Assembly (NCBI RefSeq): GCF_001295265.1
Contig: NZ_LJOD01000001.1
Span: forward strand, 682,001 to 746,000
From: Chryseobacterium indologenes
GTDB taxonomy: Bacteria; Bacteroidota; Bacteroidia; Flavobacteriales; Weeksellaceae
Direction of reading: 5' to 3'
Length of the DNA: 64,000 nt
The notes below the pieces were generated by a model. The model worked only from the letters and a program-made list of their open reading frames with translations. It ran no database searches and had not been told where the DNA came from. Both the position numbers and the translations under genes were made by a program. Of this stretch, positions 2,976 through 61,808 are shown piece by piece (position 1 is the first letter of the stretch; each line of letters begins with the position of its first letter).

Positions 2976-3025
2976 ATCATTTCCGAACCTATTTTTAATA
3001 TTAATCTTTCAACACATAAAATATA

Positions 3026-15270: not shown

Positions 15271-15882
15271 ATGTATAAAGTTTTTGTGAACGAAAAAAAA
15301 TTATTAGTGTCTAAGCATCCTGAGAATCTTGAAAAAGAGCTTAAGTATGAAAGTTTCACAACTTTAGAGATTGCACTGGATCTTCTGGAGAATACATCTG
15401 CGCAGGAACTTAATATATTCGGTGAGAATATAGAAGAGATCTGGAAAGAGTTTCAGGGACTTTTCAGAATTATAGAAGCCGCAGGTGGCCTTGTGAACAA
15501 TCCGCAGGGAGATATTCTTTTCATCAAAAGATTAGGAAAATGGGATCTTCCGAAAGGTAAAATGGAAAAAGGGGAATCCCGTGAAGAGTCTGCGGTAAGG
15601 GAAATTGAAGAAGAAACCGGACTTAGAGACGTGGAACTGATCAGATTCATCAACACTACCTATCATATTTATATTGAAAGAAATGGCGAAAAAATCCTGA
15701 AATGCACTCATTGGTTTGAAATGTCTTTCAGTGGAGAAGATACATCAAAGCCTCAGATAGAAGAAGGAATTACAGAAGTGGCCTGGAAAAATACGTCACA
15801 GATTGAAAACGAGGTTTTTCCAAGCACTTTTAAAAATATTAAGCTGATCGTTAGAGAATTCTGGGATTCCCAACCTAAATAA
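15271..15882 (+). CDS. NUDIX hydrolase
   Basis: A 203-residue enzyme. The NUDIX box G-x5-E-x7-R-E-I-x-E-E-x-G-L starts at Gly96 (G-K-M-E-K-G-E then R-E-I-E-E-E-T-G-L) and provides the metal-binding glutamates for cleaving a nucleoside diphosphate linked to a moiety X. About 90 residues precede the NUDIX domain and match no domain I know, which makes this longer than a minimal NUDIX protein. A -7 element TATTTTTG is at 15239-15246. The substrate cannot be predicted. Confidence 0.88.
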   Translation: MYKVFVNEKKLLVSKHPENLEKELKYESFTTLEIALDLLENTSAQELNIFGENIEEIWKEFQGLFRIIEAAGGLVNNPQGDILFIKRLGKWDLPKGKMEKGESREESAVREIEEETGLRDVELIRFINTTYHIYIERNGEKILKCTHWFEMSFSGEDTSKPQIEEGITEVAWKNTSQIENEVFPSTFKNIKLIVREFWDSQPK

Positions 15883-55744: not shown

Positions 55745-55948
55745 ATGTCTTACAACAATAAAAATTACATCAAACGTGCCCGGTACATTATAAGTGTTTA
55801 TAATGCACACAAGCACGCTGATGTTCCCGATACCAAAATCGTAAGGCATACGTTCCCCAAATACAACATTCATCTCTCCTACAGGCAGTGGATGAACATC
55901 AAAGGAATGGTGATTCCCAAAGAGGAAACCCAGCTTACCTTATTTTAG
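55745..55948 (+). CDS. Small phage protein, possibly regulatory
   Basis: A 67-residue basic protein: R-A-R-Y-I-I-S-V-Y-N-A-H-K-H-A-D-V-P-D-T-K-I near the start and S-Y-R-Q-W-M-N-I-K-G-M-V in the second half, which could be a DNA-binding helix. It has its own promoter after the early terminator, and its position is that of Mor or C in Mu, the activators of middle and late genes. The sequence does not resemble Mor. Its 3' end overlaps the convergent gene by four bases. Confidence 0.5.
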   Translation: MSYNNKNYIKRARYIISVYNAHKHADVPDTKIVRHTFPKYNIHLSYRQWMNIKGMVIPKEETQLTLF

Positions 55949-56484
55949 TTCACGCCTATTACTGAAAAATGATAACGCTCTATTTCAGCCTTTGTTTCCT
56001 CCGGACTTGCTGACAAGTCTTCGTACTGCGTCGTAAAGATCAGTTCTCTTACTTTAAATCCTGCATGCTGTCTGCTTGTGCTTTTCACCATCGTTCTTGA
56101 AAAGGGTGAGAAATAATCCTTACTCCAGCCCTGAAGCGCTTGATACAGTTTCTGCTCGATTCTTAAAAAATCAAACCCTTTTTTTCTTTCTTCAACCGGA
56201 ATCCCGTGCCATGTCGGAAATACATCATTCGACACAAGCTGGAAAGATACCGGAACATTTCCCAGTTGTCTGTTTGCCGACATATCGGAATATGATGCTT
56301 CCGGGAAATCCACATCATACATGGCTTCCGGAAAATCAATAAAGAGAGCCGGATAAGTTACCGTCCCCTGTGCTCCATTGGCAAGCTGTCCCATCTGCTG
56401 ATCGATATGCTGAATCTCCGGAACCTCCTGGGCAATTCTTTCCTGAAGGTCTAATAATAACTGTACATAAAAATATTCTTCCAT
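55945..56484 (-). CDS. Phage structural-type protein on the opposite strand
   Basis: A 179-residue protein read leftwards, against all other rightward phage genes. It starts M-E-E-Y-F-Y-V-Q-L-L-L-D-L-Q-E-R-I and has P-A-L-F-I-D-F-P-E-A and V-S-F-Q-L-V-S-N-D-V strands, resembling tail-terminator or neck proteins (Mu gp37/DUF1834-like) in layout. The family call is tentative. The ATG at 56484 is used; eight earlier residues are possible. Confidence 0.5.
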   Translation of the reverse strand: MEEYFYVQLLLDLQERIAQEVPEIQHIDQQMGQLANGAQGTVTYPALFIDFPEAMYDVDFPEASYSDMSANRQLGNVPVSFQLVSNDVFPTWHGIPVEERKKGFDFLRIEQKLYQALQGWSKDYFSPFSRTMVKSTSRQHAGFKVRELIFTTQYEDLSASPEETKAEIERYHFSVIGVN

Positions 56485-56703
56485 AAGTAGTAAATTATAG
56501 TTTATCAAATTAGTTTCTGTTATGGAATAGTTTCATTTAAACAGGCTTATTTTCTTCCCGTCTACACTATTTCACAGTACAAAATTGAGCTTTAAACAGG
56601 GCATTTGAAAAAAGGTGTGCAATCCTTGCGCTCTTATTTTCAAACCGTTGCAGGATGTTAGAAATTTGTACTCACAAAACAAACACAACACTCAATTATT
56701 AAT

Positions 56704-57776: not shown

Positions 57777-58937
57777 ATGTCACAAGGAAATGGAACACCA
57801 AAAGTAAAAGCGAATGTGGCTTCAGGCAACTTACTTCGTCAGATTCAGGTAATCGACGGCGTTGCAGGAATCGTGGGAACAGCCAGCAAAGATGCCAATA
57901 TTGGTAAAGTGCAGACTGTTTACTCACCAGAAGACGCTAAAACAAAAGGGTACACTGAGCAGGACGAACCGTTCTTGTTTCAGGCAATCAATGAATTTTA
58001 TCAGGAGCTTGGGGGAAGCCAGGAGCTGTGGATCTTAGGAACTCCGGCTGCAACAACAATGGAAACTGCCCTTAGCAGCACTAACGAATCAGGAGTGAAA
58101 AAACTTCTTACCGCCTCCAATGGTAGAGTAAACTTAGTAGGAGTTTGCAGAAAGCCGGATGCAGCTTACGTCTCTCCTGCAGGCTTTTTAGACAAAGACG
58201 TTGAGAAAGCGTTATTAGCTTCCAAAACATTAGCTCAGTACCAGCAGTCCATCAACAGACCGGTAAGAATTTTAATCGAAGGTAGAGTAAATGATGCTTC
58301 TCTTGAATCTTCTTTTGAGCCGAAATCTGCTGACAATACGTTTGCGGGGGTTGTTCTTGGAGGATCAAGAAAAGACGGCTCTGCATCTGTAGCACTAGTT
58401 CTGGCAAGAGCCTGTAAATATCCGGCTCACGTAAAGATCGGAGACGGACAAAACGGAGCACTAAGCATTACCGAAGCGTATATCGGAGAAGACAAAGTAG
58501 ATGAGATCCCGGTTGAAAAACTGGACAAATTCACCGATGCAGGTTTCATCACTTTCCACACCAGAGAAGGAGCTGCAGGTTATTATTTCAGCGTAGATAA
58601 AATGGCTGGTTCAGATGACTTCAGAACACTGGTTCACGGAAGACTGATTGACAAAGCACAGAGAATCTCTACTGCTACAGACACCCCGTTCCTGGAATCT
58701 TCCATCAGAATGGCTGCAGACGGAAAACTGAATGAAGCAGATGCTGTTTACCTGGAAGAACTTACAAGAGCCCAGCTATTGAACAACATGGCAGGACAGA
58801 TCAGCGGAGCGGAAGTATTGGTCCCTTTAGATCAGGATTTAATCAACACAAACACCCTTGAAAAACAGATTCAGATCCAGCCGTTAGGCTATATGACCTG
58901 GATTGTACTGAATATGGGTTTAACAAAAACAATTTAA
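57777..58937 (+). CDS. Contractile tail sheath protein (DUF2586 type)
   Basis: A 386-residue protein that would form the contractile sheath around the tail tube. The N-terminal part has V-I-D-G-V-A-G-I-V-G-T-A-S-K-D and W-I-L-G-T-P-A, and the C-terminal part L-I-D-K-A-Q-R-I-S-T and I-Q-P-L-G-Y-M-T-W-I-V-L-N-M-G-L, fitting the DUF2586/sheath families. It is followed by the tube gene after eight bases, the usual sheath-tube order. Confidence 0.82.
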   Translation: MSQGNGTPKVKANVASGNLLRQIQVIDGVAGIVGTASKDANIGKVQTVYSPEDAKTKGYTEQDEPFLFQAINEFYQELGGSQELWILGTPAATTMETALSSTNESGVKKLLTASNGRVNLVGVCRKPDAAYVSPAGFLDKDVEKALLASKTLAQYQQSINRPVRILIEGRVNDASLESSFEPKSADNTFAGVVLGGSRKDGSASVALVLARACKYPAHVKIGDGQNGALSITEAYIGEDKVDEIPVEKLDKFTDAGFITFHTREGAAGYYFSVDKMAGSDDFRTLVHGRLIDKAQRISTATDTPFLESSIRMAADGKLNEADAVYLEELTRAQLLNNMAGQISGAEVLVPLDQDLINTNTLEKQIQIQPLGYMTWIVLNMGLTKTI

Positions 58938-58945
58938 TTTAAAAC

Positions 58946-59383
58946 ATGGCTAATATAAATATTACATCATCAGAATGCGCATGGGCTCATTTTGAAGTGA
59001 AAGTGTTATCAAAAGTAATTAAAGGACTTAGAGGTTTCAGTACAAAAAAAACTGTTGAATCCGAGCATATCTACGGTTCAGGGAACGAGCCTATTGATAT
59101 TTCAAAAGGGAATACCAAATACGAAGGAAACATCAAGCTTTTAGGTTTTGAAGCCGATGCATTGAACAAAGCTGCAAGAGAGGCTGGATACGATGATATC
59201 ACTGAGGTTCCTCACGAACTTATCGTGATCACAATTTCTTACAAGAAAAAAGCTTCTGACAAAGGAACAACCATTGTTACTTCAGGAGTTCAGTTCACAG
59301 AAGACGGTTTCGAAATGGAGCAAGGGGCTAAAAACAGAGAGGTTACCCTTCCGTACATCGCAATGAGCAGAAGAATTGTATAA
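58946..59383 (+). CDS. Tail tube protein
   Basis: A 145-residue protein with beta-rich strands: I-N-I-T-S-S-E-C-A-W-A-H-F-E-V-K-V-L, then I-Y-G-S-G-N-E-P-I-D-I-S-K-G-N-T-K-Y-E-G-N-I-K-L-L. Its size, place between sheath and chaperone and motif style match tube proteins of Mu (gpM) and related contractile-tailed phages. The specific family was not searched. Confidence 0.75.
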   Translation: MANINITSSECAWAHFEVKVLSKVIKGLRGFSTKKTVESEHIYGSGNEPIDISKGNTKYEGNIKLLGFEADALNKAAREAGYDDITEVPHELIVITISYKKKASDKGTTIVTSGVQFTEDGFEMEQGAKNREVTLPYIAMSRRIV

Positions 59384-59401: not shown

Positions 59402-59809
59402 ATGGCAAACGAAAAATTACAGGAAATTTTCAATAACAGAAAATCTAAAGAAGAAAAAAAGACCCAGGAAACCAAGAAAAGTGTAGTAAAAGACCTTAGC
59501 CCTTTTGAGGCAAGATACACTGCTAAAAAGCTTGATGAGTGGAAAAAAGAGTATGGCAACAGAGACCTTATTTATCTGAAGGTGGATGACTTCCTTGCGG
59601 TTCTCAGACCTCCTAAAGCAGATGACCTGGGCGATTATCTTACGGCTATCGGTTCCAACGGAATGAGTAAAGCCGTAGCGATGATCGTAGAACAGCTTTG
59701 GATTGAAGGAGATTATCAGCTGATTGAAGATGAAGACTGCTTCATCGCCGTGTTCTTACAGATGAATAACATTCTGGAGAGCAAGAAAGCCGACTTTTTT
59801 CGCGCTTAG
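59402..59809 (+). CDS. Tail assembly chaperone (G-like short product)
   Basis: A 135-residue protein, rich in charged residues at the start and helical. It lies between the tube and tape measure genes, where contractile-tailed phages encode the tail assembly chaperone that binds the tape measure. The reading frame ends with F-F-R-A-stop. The coding sequence contains GACTTTTTTCGC at 59792-59803 near its end, and an extension frame continues beyond; see the next entry. This is probably the short (G) product. Confidence 0.7.
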   Translation: MANEKLQEIFNNRKSKEEKKTQETKKSVVKDLSPFEARYTAKKLDEWKKEYGNRDLIYLKVDDFLAVLRPPKADDLGDYLTAIGSNGMSKAVAMIVEQLWIEGDYQLIEDEDCFIAVFLQMNNILESKKADFFRA

Positions 59810-59987
59810 TGAAGCCGGTCGGAATTCATTCTCTGATAAAAAGACCGAAGGAATAGAGTTCCTGATTGTTTTTGGAAGTATGCAGTTTGGAGCCGATGCA
59901 TTAAAGAATTGGGGTGATGAAAAGTTTTTCTATCGCACCGGAATAGCCTTAGAAATTTGGAAAAAACAAGGCGAAAGAAAATTTTAA
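59802..59987 (+). CDS. GT-type extension of the tail chaperone, read by ribosomal frameshift
   Basis: In the +1 (equal to -2) frame relative to the chaperone gene, 61 codons run from GCG at 59802 to TAA at 59985-59987. The translation begins A-L-S-E-A-G-R-N-S-F-S and ends K-K-Q-G-E-R-K-F; it includes F-L-I-V-F-G-S-M-Q-F-G-A-D-A-L-K. It is coding-like but has no start codon before the ATG at 59880. The shift would occur at TTT-TTT-C (59795-59801), where the tRNA on TTT can re-pair with TTC. Result: a 194-195 residue fusion, the T part. The tape measure ATG follows three bases later. Confidence 0.7.
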   Translation, partial: ALSEAGRNSFSDKKTEGIEFLIVFGSMQFGADALKNWGDEKFFYRTGIALEIWKKQGERKF

Positions 59988-59990
59988 ATT

Positions 59991-61808
59991 ATGAGTGAAA
60001 ACAACATTGCGTCACAGGCTAATTTTATTGCACAAATAAGTAGCTTTTTAAGAACCAGTGATTTGGTAAATGGCTATAAACAGCTGAGAGATGATATCGA
60101 TAAAGGGCTGGAAATATTAGGTGATAATATTTTAACAACCATGCGTAGTATACCATCAAAAATTAAAAGCCTTCCAGGCAATATATTTGATGGAATCAAA
60201 GATATATACGGAACTGTTAAAGACTCCATAAAATCAAACTACAACAGATTTAGAGAGTATATGAAAATAAAGCTGGGAGTACCGGGTGCATCAGCGCCGG
60301 TAGCTGCACCAGCTTCTGCACCAGATGCACCACAAAGTGGCGGAGGCGGAGGTTTCCTCAGCGGTGCAATGGGAGCCTTGGGAGGCGGGCTTAAACTTGT
60401 GGGTGATGCCGCATTAAATCTTCTCAAAAGTGGAGCTTCTGCTGCAATTTCAGGCGCTATGCAAAAAGAAAAAGACATTGCCGGGCTTTCGGGGCTTCTG
60501 GGAAAAGGAGGCGCTACCGCTGCTTATAAAAATATCAACTCCGATTCTAATAATACGGCATACGATATGACAACATTATTAGAAGCCAACAAAGCCCTTA
60601 TTTCCGTAGACGGAGATGCTAAACGTGCCAGAGAGGAAGTAATGAACCTTGCTAACGCCGTAAGTGCTGCAGGCGGCAGTGGTAGTGAACTTCTGAGCCT
60701 TTCTGAACAGATGAAAGAAATCAAAAGTGAAGGAGTAGCATCCAGCGACCAGCTTAAAAAGTTCGGAGCAGCGGGTATTGATATATACGGAGCGTTATCA
60801 TCTTCCACAGGTAAAAGCATTGAGCAGCTGAAAGGGATGAATATCACCTATGATATGCTGGCAAAATCACTTTCTGACGCCAAAGGTAAAGGAGGAATGT
60901 TCGAAGGCGGCCTTGAAGGCCAGAGCAATACGGTAGAAGGAAAATTAGACATGATCAAAAAAACGTCTACCAGCATGCTTACAGAAATCGGAACCGCTTT
61001 CATGCCTCTCATATCAAGCGTACTGGATATAGGTGTTAAACTGGTGAAAGGTTTTGAACCTTTAATGACATTAGTACAACCCTACATTGACACTATCGTG
61101 GGAAGTCTGAGCTCAGCTCTGGATTTTATCTTAAATCTGGGAGGAGAAACCAATGCATGGGGTGGCTTTGTAACCACAATTCAGGAATATTTTTCTATTG
61201 TCTGGAATACTTTAGGAAGCATTTTTGGTGCCGTTTGGAGTATTGTAAGCGGAATCATTGACTGGATCTCGAAAAGTGTACTGATCAGCGATATTTTTAC
61301 AGGAGTTTACAAAGTCCTGGGAGCTGTTTTAACCATGGTTGGATGGCTTGCAGATGGGATAAAATTCATTTGGGAAAATGTGCTGAGACCTATTCTGGAT
61401 GCAATTGAAACAGCTTACCGATGGGTTAGAAAAATTGTTGGAGGAGAAGAGGTTGCCATAGAGCCCAAAGTTACAGTTACCTCTCCAAAAGATCTGACTA
61501 AAGATCTTAAAGCCCAGCAGACTGCATTAAATTTCGCCAAGCCAGGCGCAACAGATCTCACAGCAAGGAGCAGGCCGACAGCAATTAGCCAGGGAGAATC
61601 CATGAGAACCAATAATGCCGCCAAATCCAGGGAAACCGGAGACACTGTTTCCGGCGGAGGCCAGAAAACCATCAATATCACCCTGGGTAAATTCTTCGAT
61701 ACCATTCAGTTCAATACCCTGAATTCCGGAGAAACATCAGATCAGTTAGAAAGTATAGTAATGGAATGCCTGGGACGTGTTCTATATAACGGAGCAAAAG
61801 TAATGTAA
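59991..61808 (+). CDS. Tail tape measure protein
   Basis: A 605-residue protein that sets tail length. Residues 1-90 are helical, 95-125 are Ala/Pro/Gly-rich linker, and the middle (about 125-340) is rich in Gly/Ala/Ser with helical patches. Residues 340-480 contain several hydrophobic segments (S-L-S-S-A-L-D-F-I-L-N, G-S-I-F-G-A-V-W-S-I-V-S-G-I-I). The last 100 residues are soluble. Its position after the chaperone/extension pair and this composition are typical. At about 0.15 nm per residue the tail would be about 90 nm long, an estimate only. Confidence 0.82.
   Translation: MSENNIASQANFIAQISSFLRTSDLVNGYKQLRDDIDKGLEILGDNILTTMRSIPSKIKSLPGNIFDGIKDIYGTVKDSIKSNYNRFREYMKIKLGVPGASAPVAAPASAPDAPQSGGGGGFLSGAMGALGGGLKLVGDAALNLLKSGASAAISGAMQKEKDIAGLSGLLGKGGATAAYKNINSDSNNTAYDMTTLLEANKALISVDGDAKRAREEVMNLANAVSAAGGSGSELLSLSEQMKEIKSEGVASSDQLKKFGAAGIDIYGALSSSTGKSIEQLKGMNITYDMLAKSLSDAKGKGGMFEGGLEGQSNTVEGKLDMIKKTSTSMLTEIGTAFMPLISSVLDIGVKLVKGFEPLMTLVQPYIDTIVGSLSSALDFILNLGGETNAWGGFVTTIQEYFSIVWNTLGSIFGAVWSIVSGIIDWISKSVLISDIFTGVYKVLGAVLTMVGWLADGIKFIWENVLRPILDAIETAYRWVRKIVGGEEVAIEPKVTVTSPKDLTKDLKAQQTALNFAKPGATDLTARSRPTAISQGESMRTNNAAKSRETGDTVSGGGQKTINITLGKFFDTIQFNTLNSGETSDQLESIVMECLGRVLYNGAKVM

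Follow-up and report, generated by a model that had tools for sequence, protein, structure and literature searches.

Tailed double-stranded DNA phages such as lambda, P2 and Mu form tail assembly chaperones of the G/GT kind through ribosomal frameshifts, most of which are given as −1 and that of Mu as −2 (PMC5009743, PMC2628397), and a review gives −1, −2 and +1 shifts each for different phages (PMC5009743). Among eukaryotic RNA viruses, the PA-X protein of influenza A arises by a +1 shift at UCC_UUU_CGU, as shown by mass spectrometry (PMC3498833), and for the amalgaviruses of plants the +1 motif is given as UUU_CGN, stated there without the UCC (PMC5052127). A paper of 2020 proposed, on comparative grounds, that TTT-CGC is a +1 site in the chaperones of the HF1 group of haloviruses and of HSTV-2, and called for experiments (PMC7230728). 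The present analysis concerns a predicted tail assembly chaperone gene of a Mu-like phage, situated near the end of a stretch of 64,000 nucleotides from Chryseobacterium indologenes (contig NZ_LJOD01000001.1; the whole stretch is referred to as the window). Comparison of sequences makes it likely that a programmed +1 ribosomal frameshift at TTT_CGC (59798-59803) connects two conserved overlapping frames of this gene.

The locus resembles the G/GT systems in having a small gene between the tail tube and tape measure genes, a second frame without a start, and a short and a long product to be expected. It is unlike them in direction, as a +1 shift at UUU_CGC is favoured for the window phage where most of those shifts are given as −1 and that of Mu as −2. 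With PA-X and the amalgaviruses it has in common the predicted P-site step from UUU to UUC, a CGN codon in the A site and the lack of an evident stimulatory structure. Unlike these, it belongs to bacterial translation and to a tailed phage, has only CGC or CGT as the following codon and has a 0-frame stop one codon later. The UCC found in the E site of the influenza motif is also missing here, with 42 related sequences showing TTT (32), TAC (9) or TTC (1) at this codon and never UCC.

Two overlapping frames in a predicted chaperone gene

Relatives were found by searches with the chaperone and with the second frame. The close family comprises 42 distinct sequences, the window's own included (L008), with chaperone identity down to 44%; the truncated L051 was left out before this count, as were sequences that duplicate another across the second frame and the final 360 nt. 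Locus L018, which belongs to a genome of the window's genus, duplicates L001 (C. angstadtii) over the 500 bases compared, in keeping with Chryseobacterium as the likely genus. In the window the frame crossing reads GAC TTT TTT CGC GCT TAG, and its features are as follows:

59402-59809, plus strand: short (G-like) form of the predicted tail assembly chaperone, 135 amino acids plus stop; an open reading frame (ORF) between the probable tail tube and tape measure ORFs
59795-59797, plus strand: codon preceding the shift codon and in the E site during slippage, TTT in the window; TTT 32, TAC 9, TTC 1 among the 42 sequences
59798-59803, plus strand: predicted +1 shift site TTT_CGC; TTT in 42/42, CGC in 39/42, CGT in 3/42
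59799-59987, plus strand: second frame (T-like), 62 codons plus TAA, predicted C-terminal part of the fusion; 16 invariant columns over 32 rows
59807-59809, plus strand: 0-frame stop TAG, one codon after CGC; at the same place TAG in 38 and TAA in 4 of the 42 sequences

An earlier note, made from the sequence alone, had placed the chaperone stop at 59807-59809, a second frame (+1 or −2 relative to the chaperone) open from 59766 to 59987, and a crossing of GAC-TTT-TTT-CGC; all of these coordinates were confirmed, the second frame closing with a TAA at 59985-59987. The window indeed has no ATG, GTG or TTG in this frame upstream of the ATG at 59880, and the TAA lies three bases before the tape measure ATG at 59991. 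The predicted fusion has 194 residues with a +1 shift and one extra Phe with a −2 shift, in agreement with the 194 or 195 residues given earlier. The junction peptides predicted for the two directions are ADFFALSEAGR (two Phe) for +1 versus ADFFFALSEAGR (three Phe) for −2.

All 42 sequences have an open second frame and a 0-frame stop exactly one codon beyond CGY. An alignment of the second frame (A3, 32 rows) has 16 invariant columns. Differences in the second frame at codon positions 1, 2 and 3 amount to 0.26, 0.16 and 0.54 per site, against 0.19, 0.09 and 0.54 per site in the first frame. This likeness in substitution pattern indicates that the second frame is protein-coding, which bears out its earlier description as coding-like. 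A sequencing error or single indel at the crossing was rejected, since both frames recur in all 42 sequences. A protein search with the chaperone gave 202 homologues; all 120 of those listed end in F-R plus one residue, and as none of the 120 exceeds 158 amino acids, no natural fusion protein occurs among them. For one relative (L074) the chaperone match (in G393) was reported with one TAG inside, yet its shift site is the standard TTT TTT CGC GCT TAG.

The second frame could also be translated separately, by re-initiation, from the ATG at 59880 or from a near-cognate start, with no fusion being made. All 32 rows of A3 share the Met of a VFGxM block, at which a peptide of 35 amino acids could begin, while GTG stands directly after the shift codon in 3/42 sequences and ATG or TTG within 25 codons upstream in another 3/42. 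However, in 36/42 the region from the last in-frame stop to the conserved GIEF block of the second frame is free of ATG, GTG and TTG, and conservation extends upstream of the VFGxM Met to an invariant Phe and Gly. A separate start would moreover leave the invariance of the TTT CGY codons unexplained, and a sister clade (see below) puts the homologous domain behind a classic −1 run. With no start conserved among the 42 sequences this explanation was rejected, and it is regarded as very improbable. The alignment of relatives suggested in the earlier note thus found both frames conserved, neither one continuous frame among the listed homologues nor a conserved independent start being seen.

The shift site and the direction of the shift

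Codon choice is more uniform at the crossing than in other conserved Phe and Arg columns of the gene. The 0-frame shift codon is TTT in 42/42, compared with 85/161 at four other conserved Phe columns; the next codon is CGC in 39/42, compared with 7/126 at three other conserved Arg columns, and CGY in 42/42, compared with 45/126 at the same columns, Fisher P values for these comparisons not being strict as the rows are related. CGA and CGG were unseen after the shift codon. The T6 run (TTTTTT before CG), in contrast, is present in 32/42, the window included, and is lost in 10/42, nine of which read TAC TTT CGC and one TTC TTT CGC. These sequences show UUU_CGY and not U6C to be the element that is always kept. 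The stress that the earlier note had laid on U6C thus does not carry over to the family as a whole.

That note had also left the choice between +1 and −2 undecided. The programmed shift itself, in the predicted chaperone gene, is strongly supported, and the sequences lacking the T6 run favour +1. In a −2 shift over U6C, tRNA-Phe would slip from UUU at 59798-59800 to UUU at 59796-59798, adding one Phe. In the 10/42 with TAC or TTC before the shift codon, the triplet two bases back is ACT or TCT, with which tRNA-Phe cannot re-pair, while a +1 slip from UUU to UUC is spared; the second frame is equally conserved in these sequences. The −2 shift was therefore rejected as a general mechanism and is considered unlikely, with a possible contribution in phages that have T6, where it could act beside +1. 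Slippage of RNA polymerase on T6 would leave part of the mRNA one U short and readable in a single frame, and the loss of one base does yield the right frame in the 32/42 with T6. However, the 10/42 with just TTT before CG keep both frames, and such slippage needs neither an in-register TTT nor a following CGY, yet both are invariant. As a general mechanism it was likewise rejected, there being no long T run in those ten, and is held to be extremely improbable.

The codon before the shift codon appears to be selected also. Where it encodes Phe it is TTT in 32/33, and where it encodes Tyr it is TAC in 9/9, although in a sample from the window's own genome (90,009 codons in 218 ORFs, each of at least 200 codons) 70% of Tyr is encoded by TAT. 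This choice may perhaps reflect an E-site effect as reported for PA-X, or perhaps a −2 shift adding product in the T6 phages. In the chaperone tree, TAC before TTT occurs in two separated subclades, each of which also has TTT TTT members, so that the change to TAC likely arose more than once.

From the conserved site we infer a +1 slip, in which peptidyl-tRNA-Phe (anticodon GAA) would move from UUU at 59798-59800 to UUC at 59799-59801, where its pairing would be better, with the seldom used CGC in the A site still awaiting tRNA-Arg(ACG). Both UUU and UUC are read by one tRNA-Phe, whose affinity is described as higher for UUC (PMC3498833), and bacterial ribosomes are said to shift +1 with particular ease at UUU_Ynn (PMC5009743). 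Only two sense codons are rarer than CGC in the own-genome sample (2.49 per 1000), GCG, the A-site codon after a +1 slip, stands at 7.10 per 1000, and one gene each for tRNA-Arg(ACG) and tRNA-Phe(GAA) was found in that genome. The majority of ribosomes would end after ...FFRA, giving the short chaperone, and a minority would read on to give the fusion of 194 amino acids (...ADFFALSEAGR...) that ends beside the tape measure gene. If the two products act as lambda G and GT do, the short one would attach to the tape measure protein and the long one would bring in tail tube subunits. The 0-frame stop one codon on may add to the pause or may merely reflect a fixed length of the first frame. A downstream RNA structure seems not to be needed, as the predicted folds of ten stretches beyond the site are no more stable than those of shuffled sequences (z −1.43 to +1.97), and no conserved G-rich block that might serve as an upstream Shine-Dalgarno-like stimulator was seen in the base table, which was inspected by eye.

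A number of points weigh against a +1 shift or against the evidence for it. The T6 run of the window permits −2 re-pairing, and a +1 shift has no need of the bias to TTT in the preceding Phe codon (32/33), which is far above the 85/161 found elsewhere. Three sequences have CGT, a commoner codon (6.0 per 1000 in the window's genome sample), and the sample consists of ORFs and not of curated genes. The tRNA count may be incomplete, as the assembly is split into 82 contigs and no anticodon was assigned to a few of the 63 Rfam matches, which are weak or lie at the ends of contigs. The sequences share descent, so that 42 rows are not 42 independent trials, and the name of chaperone derives from gene order, the support from sequence and fold being weak. 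Finally, the chaperone gene of phage Mu has a site of the same geometry, CGG GGG CGA, which carries the GenBank note 'verified -2 translational frameshift'.

The Mu site (L031, 1940-1990) reads CAA GAA CGG GGG CGA. Gene 41 of Mu is like the window gene in its position and in having a homopolymer codon followed by CGN. It differs in that its annotated −2 shift needs the G5 run, whereas 10/42 sequences of the window family lack such a run ahead of the shift codon. A Mu-type run of at least five identical bases, which allows re-pairing two bases back, is intact in the window itself and broken in these ten, and so does not characterize the family.

The haloviruses share with the window phage a TTT-CGC in the chaperone gene and a proposed +1 shift. 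TTT CGC AGA was found at the frame crossing in 6/6 haloviral loci examined (L251-L256, of 53 matching records; in L251 at 15440-15515), preceded by TCC in two and by AAG in four, codons which speak against a −2 shift at this motif. GenBank notes for two of these viruses (L252, L256) do give −2, a direction that re-pairing of tRNA-Phe would not allow. The haloviruses differ from the window phage in their archaeal hosts, in the AGA that follows the site and in the preceding codon. A tblastn search with the window chaperone gave no match to the haloviral chaperones.

Phage module and gene neighbourhood

The gene pair belongs to a Mu-like phage tail module at the end of the window, which comprises sheath, probable tail tube, chaperone, tape measure and baseplate hub proteins, with a transposase (PHROG 310) and a transposition protein (PHROG 296) at 50.2-53.2 kb of the window. 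The neighbouring genes are as follows:

57777-58937, plus strand: tail sheath; PHROG 907 tail sheath, PF10758 above cut-off
58946-59383, plus strand: probable tail tube protein, named by position; PHROG 4579 tail protein (E-value 8.9e-9), PHROG 9206 major head protein (E-value 9.5e-18)
59991-61808, plus strand: tape measure protein; several tape measure PHROGs (best E-value 2.3e-10), PF20155 below its cut-off

The pair thus sits between tube and tape measure genes, as in G/GT, with the tube gene being named by its position and a weak tail PHROG. The chaperone ORF (59402-59809) matches PHROG 19076, of unknown function, and a Pfam search with it gave no family match. Its predicted structure (pLDDT 77) has 3fgx_A as the best PDB match, with a probability of 0.99 but an E-value of 0.03, and among the 50 viral fold matches listed 7 bear the name tail assembly chaperone, all of them weak (E-value 0.13 or worse). 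An ORF of 187 amino acids (55945-56508, minus strand) lies on the opposite strand inside the phage module and matches PHROG 6911, also of unknown function.

Sister clade, history and meaning of the shift

A sister clade of seven loci (L207-L213; near position 3000, in L208 near 930) has a homologous second domain in the −1 frame, with an A7 or A8 run in 7/7. The sites read CTA AAA AAA AGC (6) or GTA AAA AAA ACG (1) and lie at Lys-Lys codons that are kept in the +1 clade too. Five of the seven loci were aligned with eight +1 rows, giving 14 invariant columns, and the remaining two (L209 and L213, 67% and 55% identity) were found by a search with that alignment. Beyond these, 18 deeper homologues have the terminal sites A_AAA_AAG (11), G_GTT_TTT (3), G_GTA_AAG (2), G_GAA_AAG (1) and G_ATA_AAT (1), and in 16/18 a −1 frame is open within the stretch inspected, L083 having an open +1 frame as well. 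The three ending at CTG GTT TTT (G_GTT_TTT; L081, L082 and L083) are unlike most relatives, which have A_AAA_AAG.

In the chaperone tree the +1 rows fall on one side of a branch with support of 93/89, present in 94% of bootstrap trees, while the sister rows are grouped with 94/83 and the deep rows with 100/99; four near-copies (L012, L009, L017 and L002) were left out, the root is a midpoint root and the program cautions that some long branches join. Between the second frame and that of the deeper −1 family no homology was detectable (hhalign probability 0.1), and the deep part of the history is for this reason drawn from the chaperone tree. An ancestral −1 shift followed by one switch to +1 is the simplest history, because the sister clade is −1 and the deeper homologues are mostly −1-like; in view of the midpoint root and the long branches it is likely and not firm. 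Such a switch would need an indel, not a multiple of three, between the site and the second domain.

While the gene pair is of the known G/GT kind, the predicted +1 shift at UUU_CGC would be a new variant, as no earlier case of the UUU_CGN motif in a bacterial phage was found in a literature search that was limited and had most subscription papers outside it. The opinion is evenly balanced as to a wider proposal, in which UUU_CGN would act as a +1 cassette on the ribosomes of bacteria, archaea and eukaryotes, having arisen separately in Bacteroidota Mu-like phages, in haloarchaeal phages and in eukaryotic RNA viruses, and in which an indel close to the junction changed an ancestral −1 chaperone shift of the Bacteroidota lineage to +1 and left the protein pair in place. 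The locus offers a comparative answer to the choice between +1 and −2, favouring +1, thanks to relatives whose sequence rules out re-pairing after a −2 slip. It would also provide annotators with a forward motif, a general one being, according to the authors of a predictor, still to be identified (PMC10885494). UUU_CGN, known in eukaryotic RNA viruses and proposed in haloviruses, would be extended to bacterial phages, where translation is easy to study. In this clade the direction of the shift appears to have flipped with both protein parts remaining recognisable, which would make the origin of recoding sites directly addressable.
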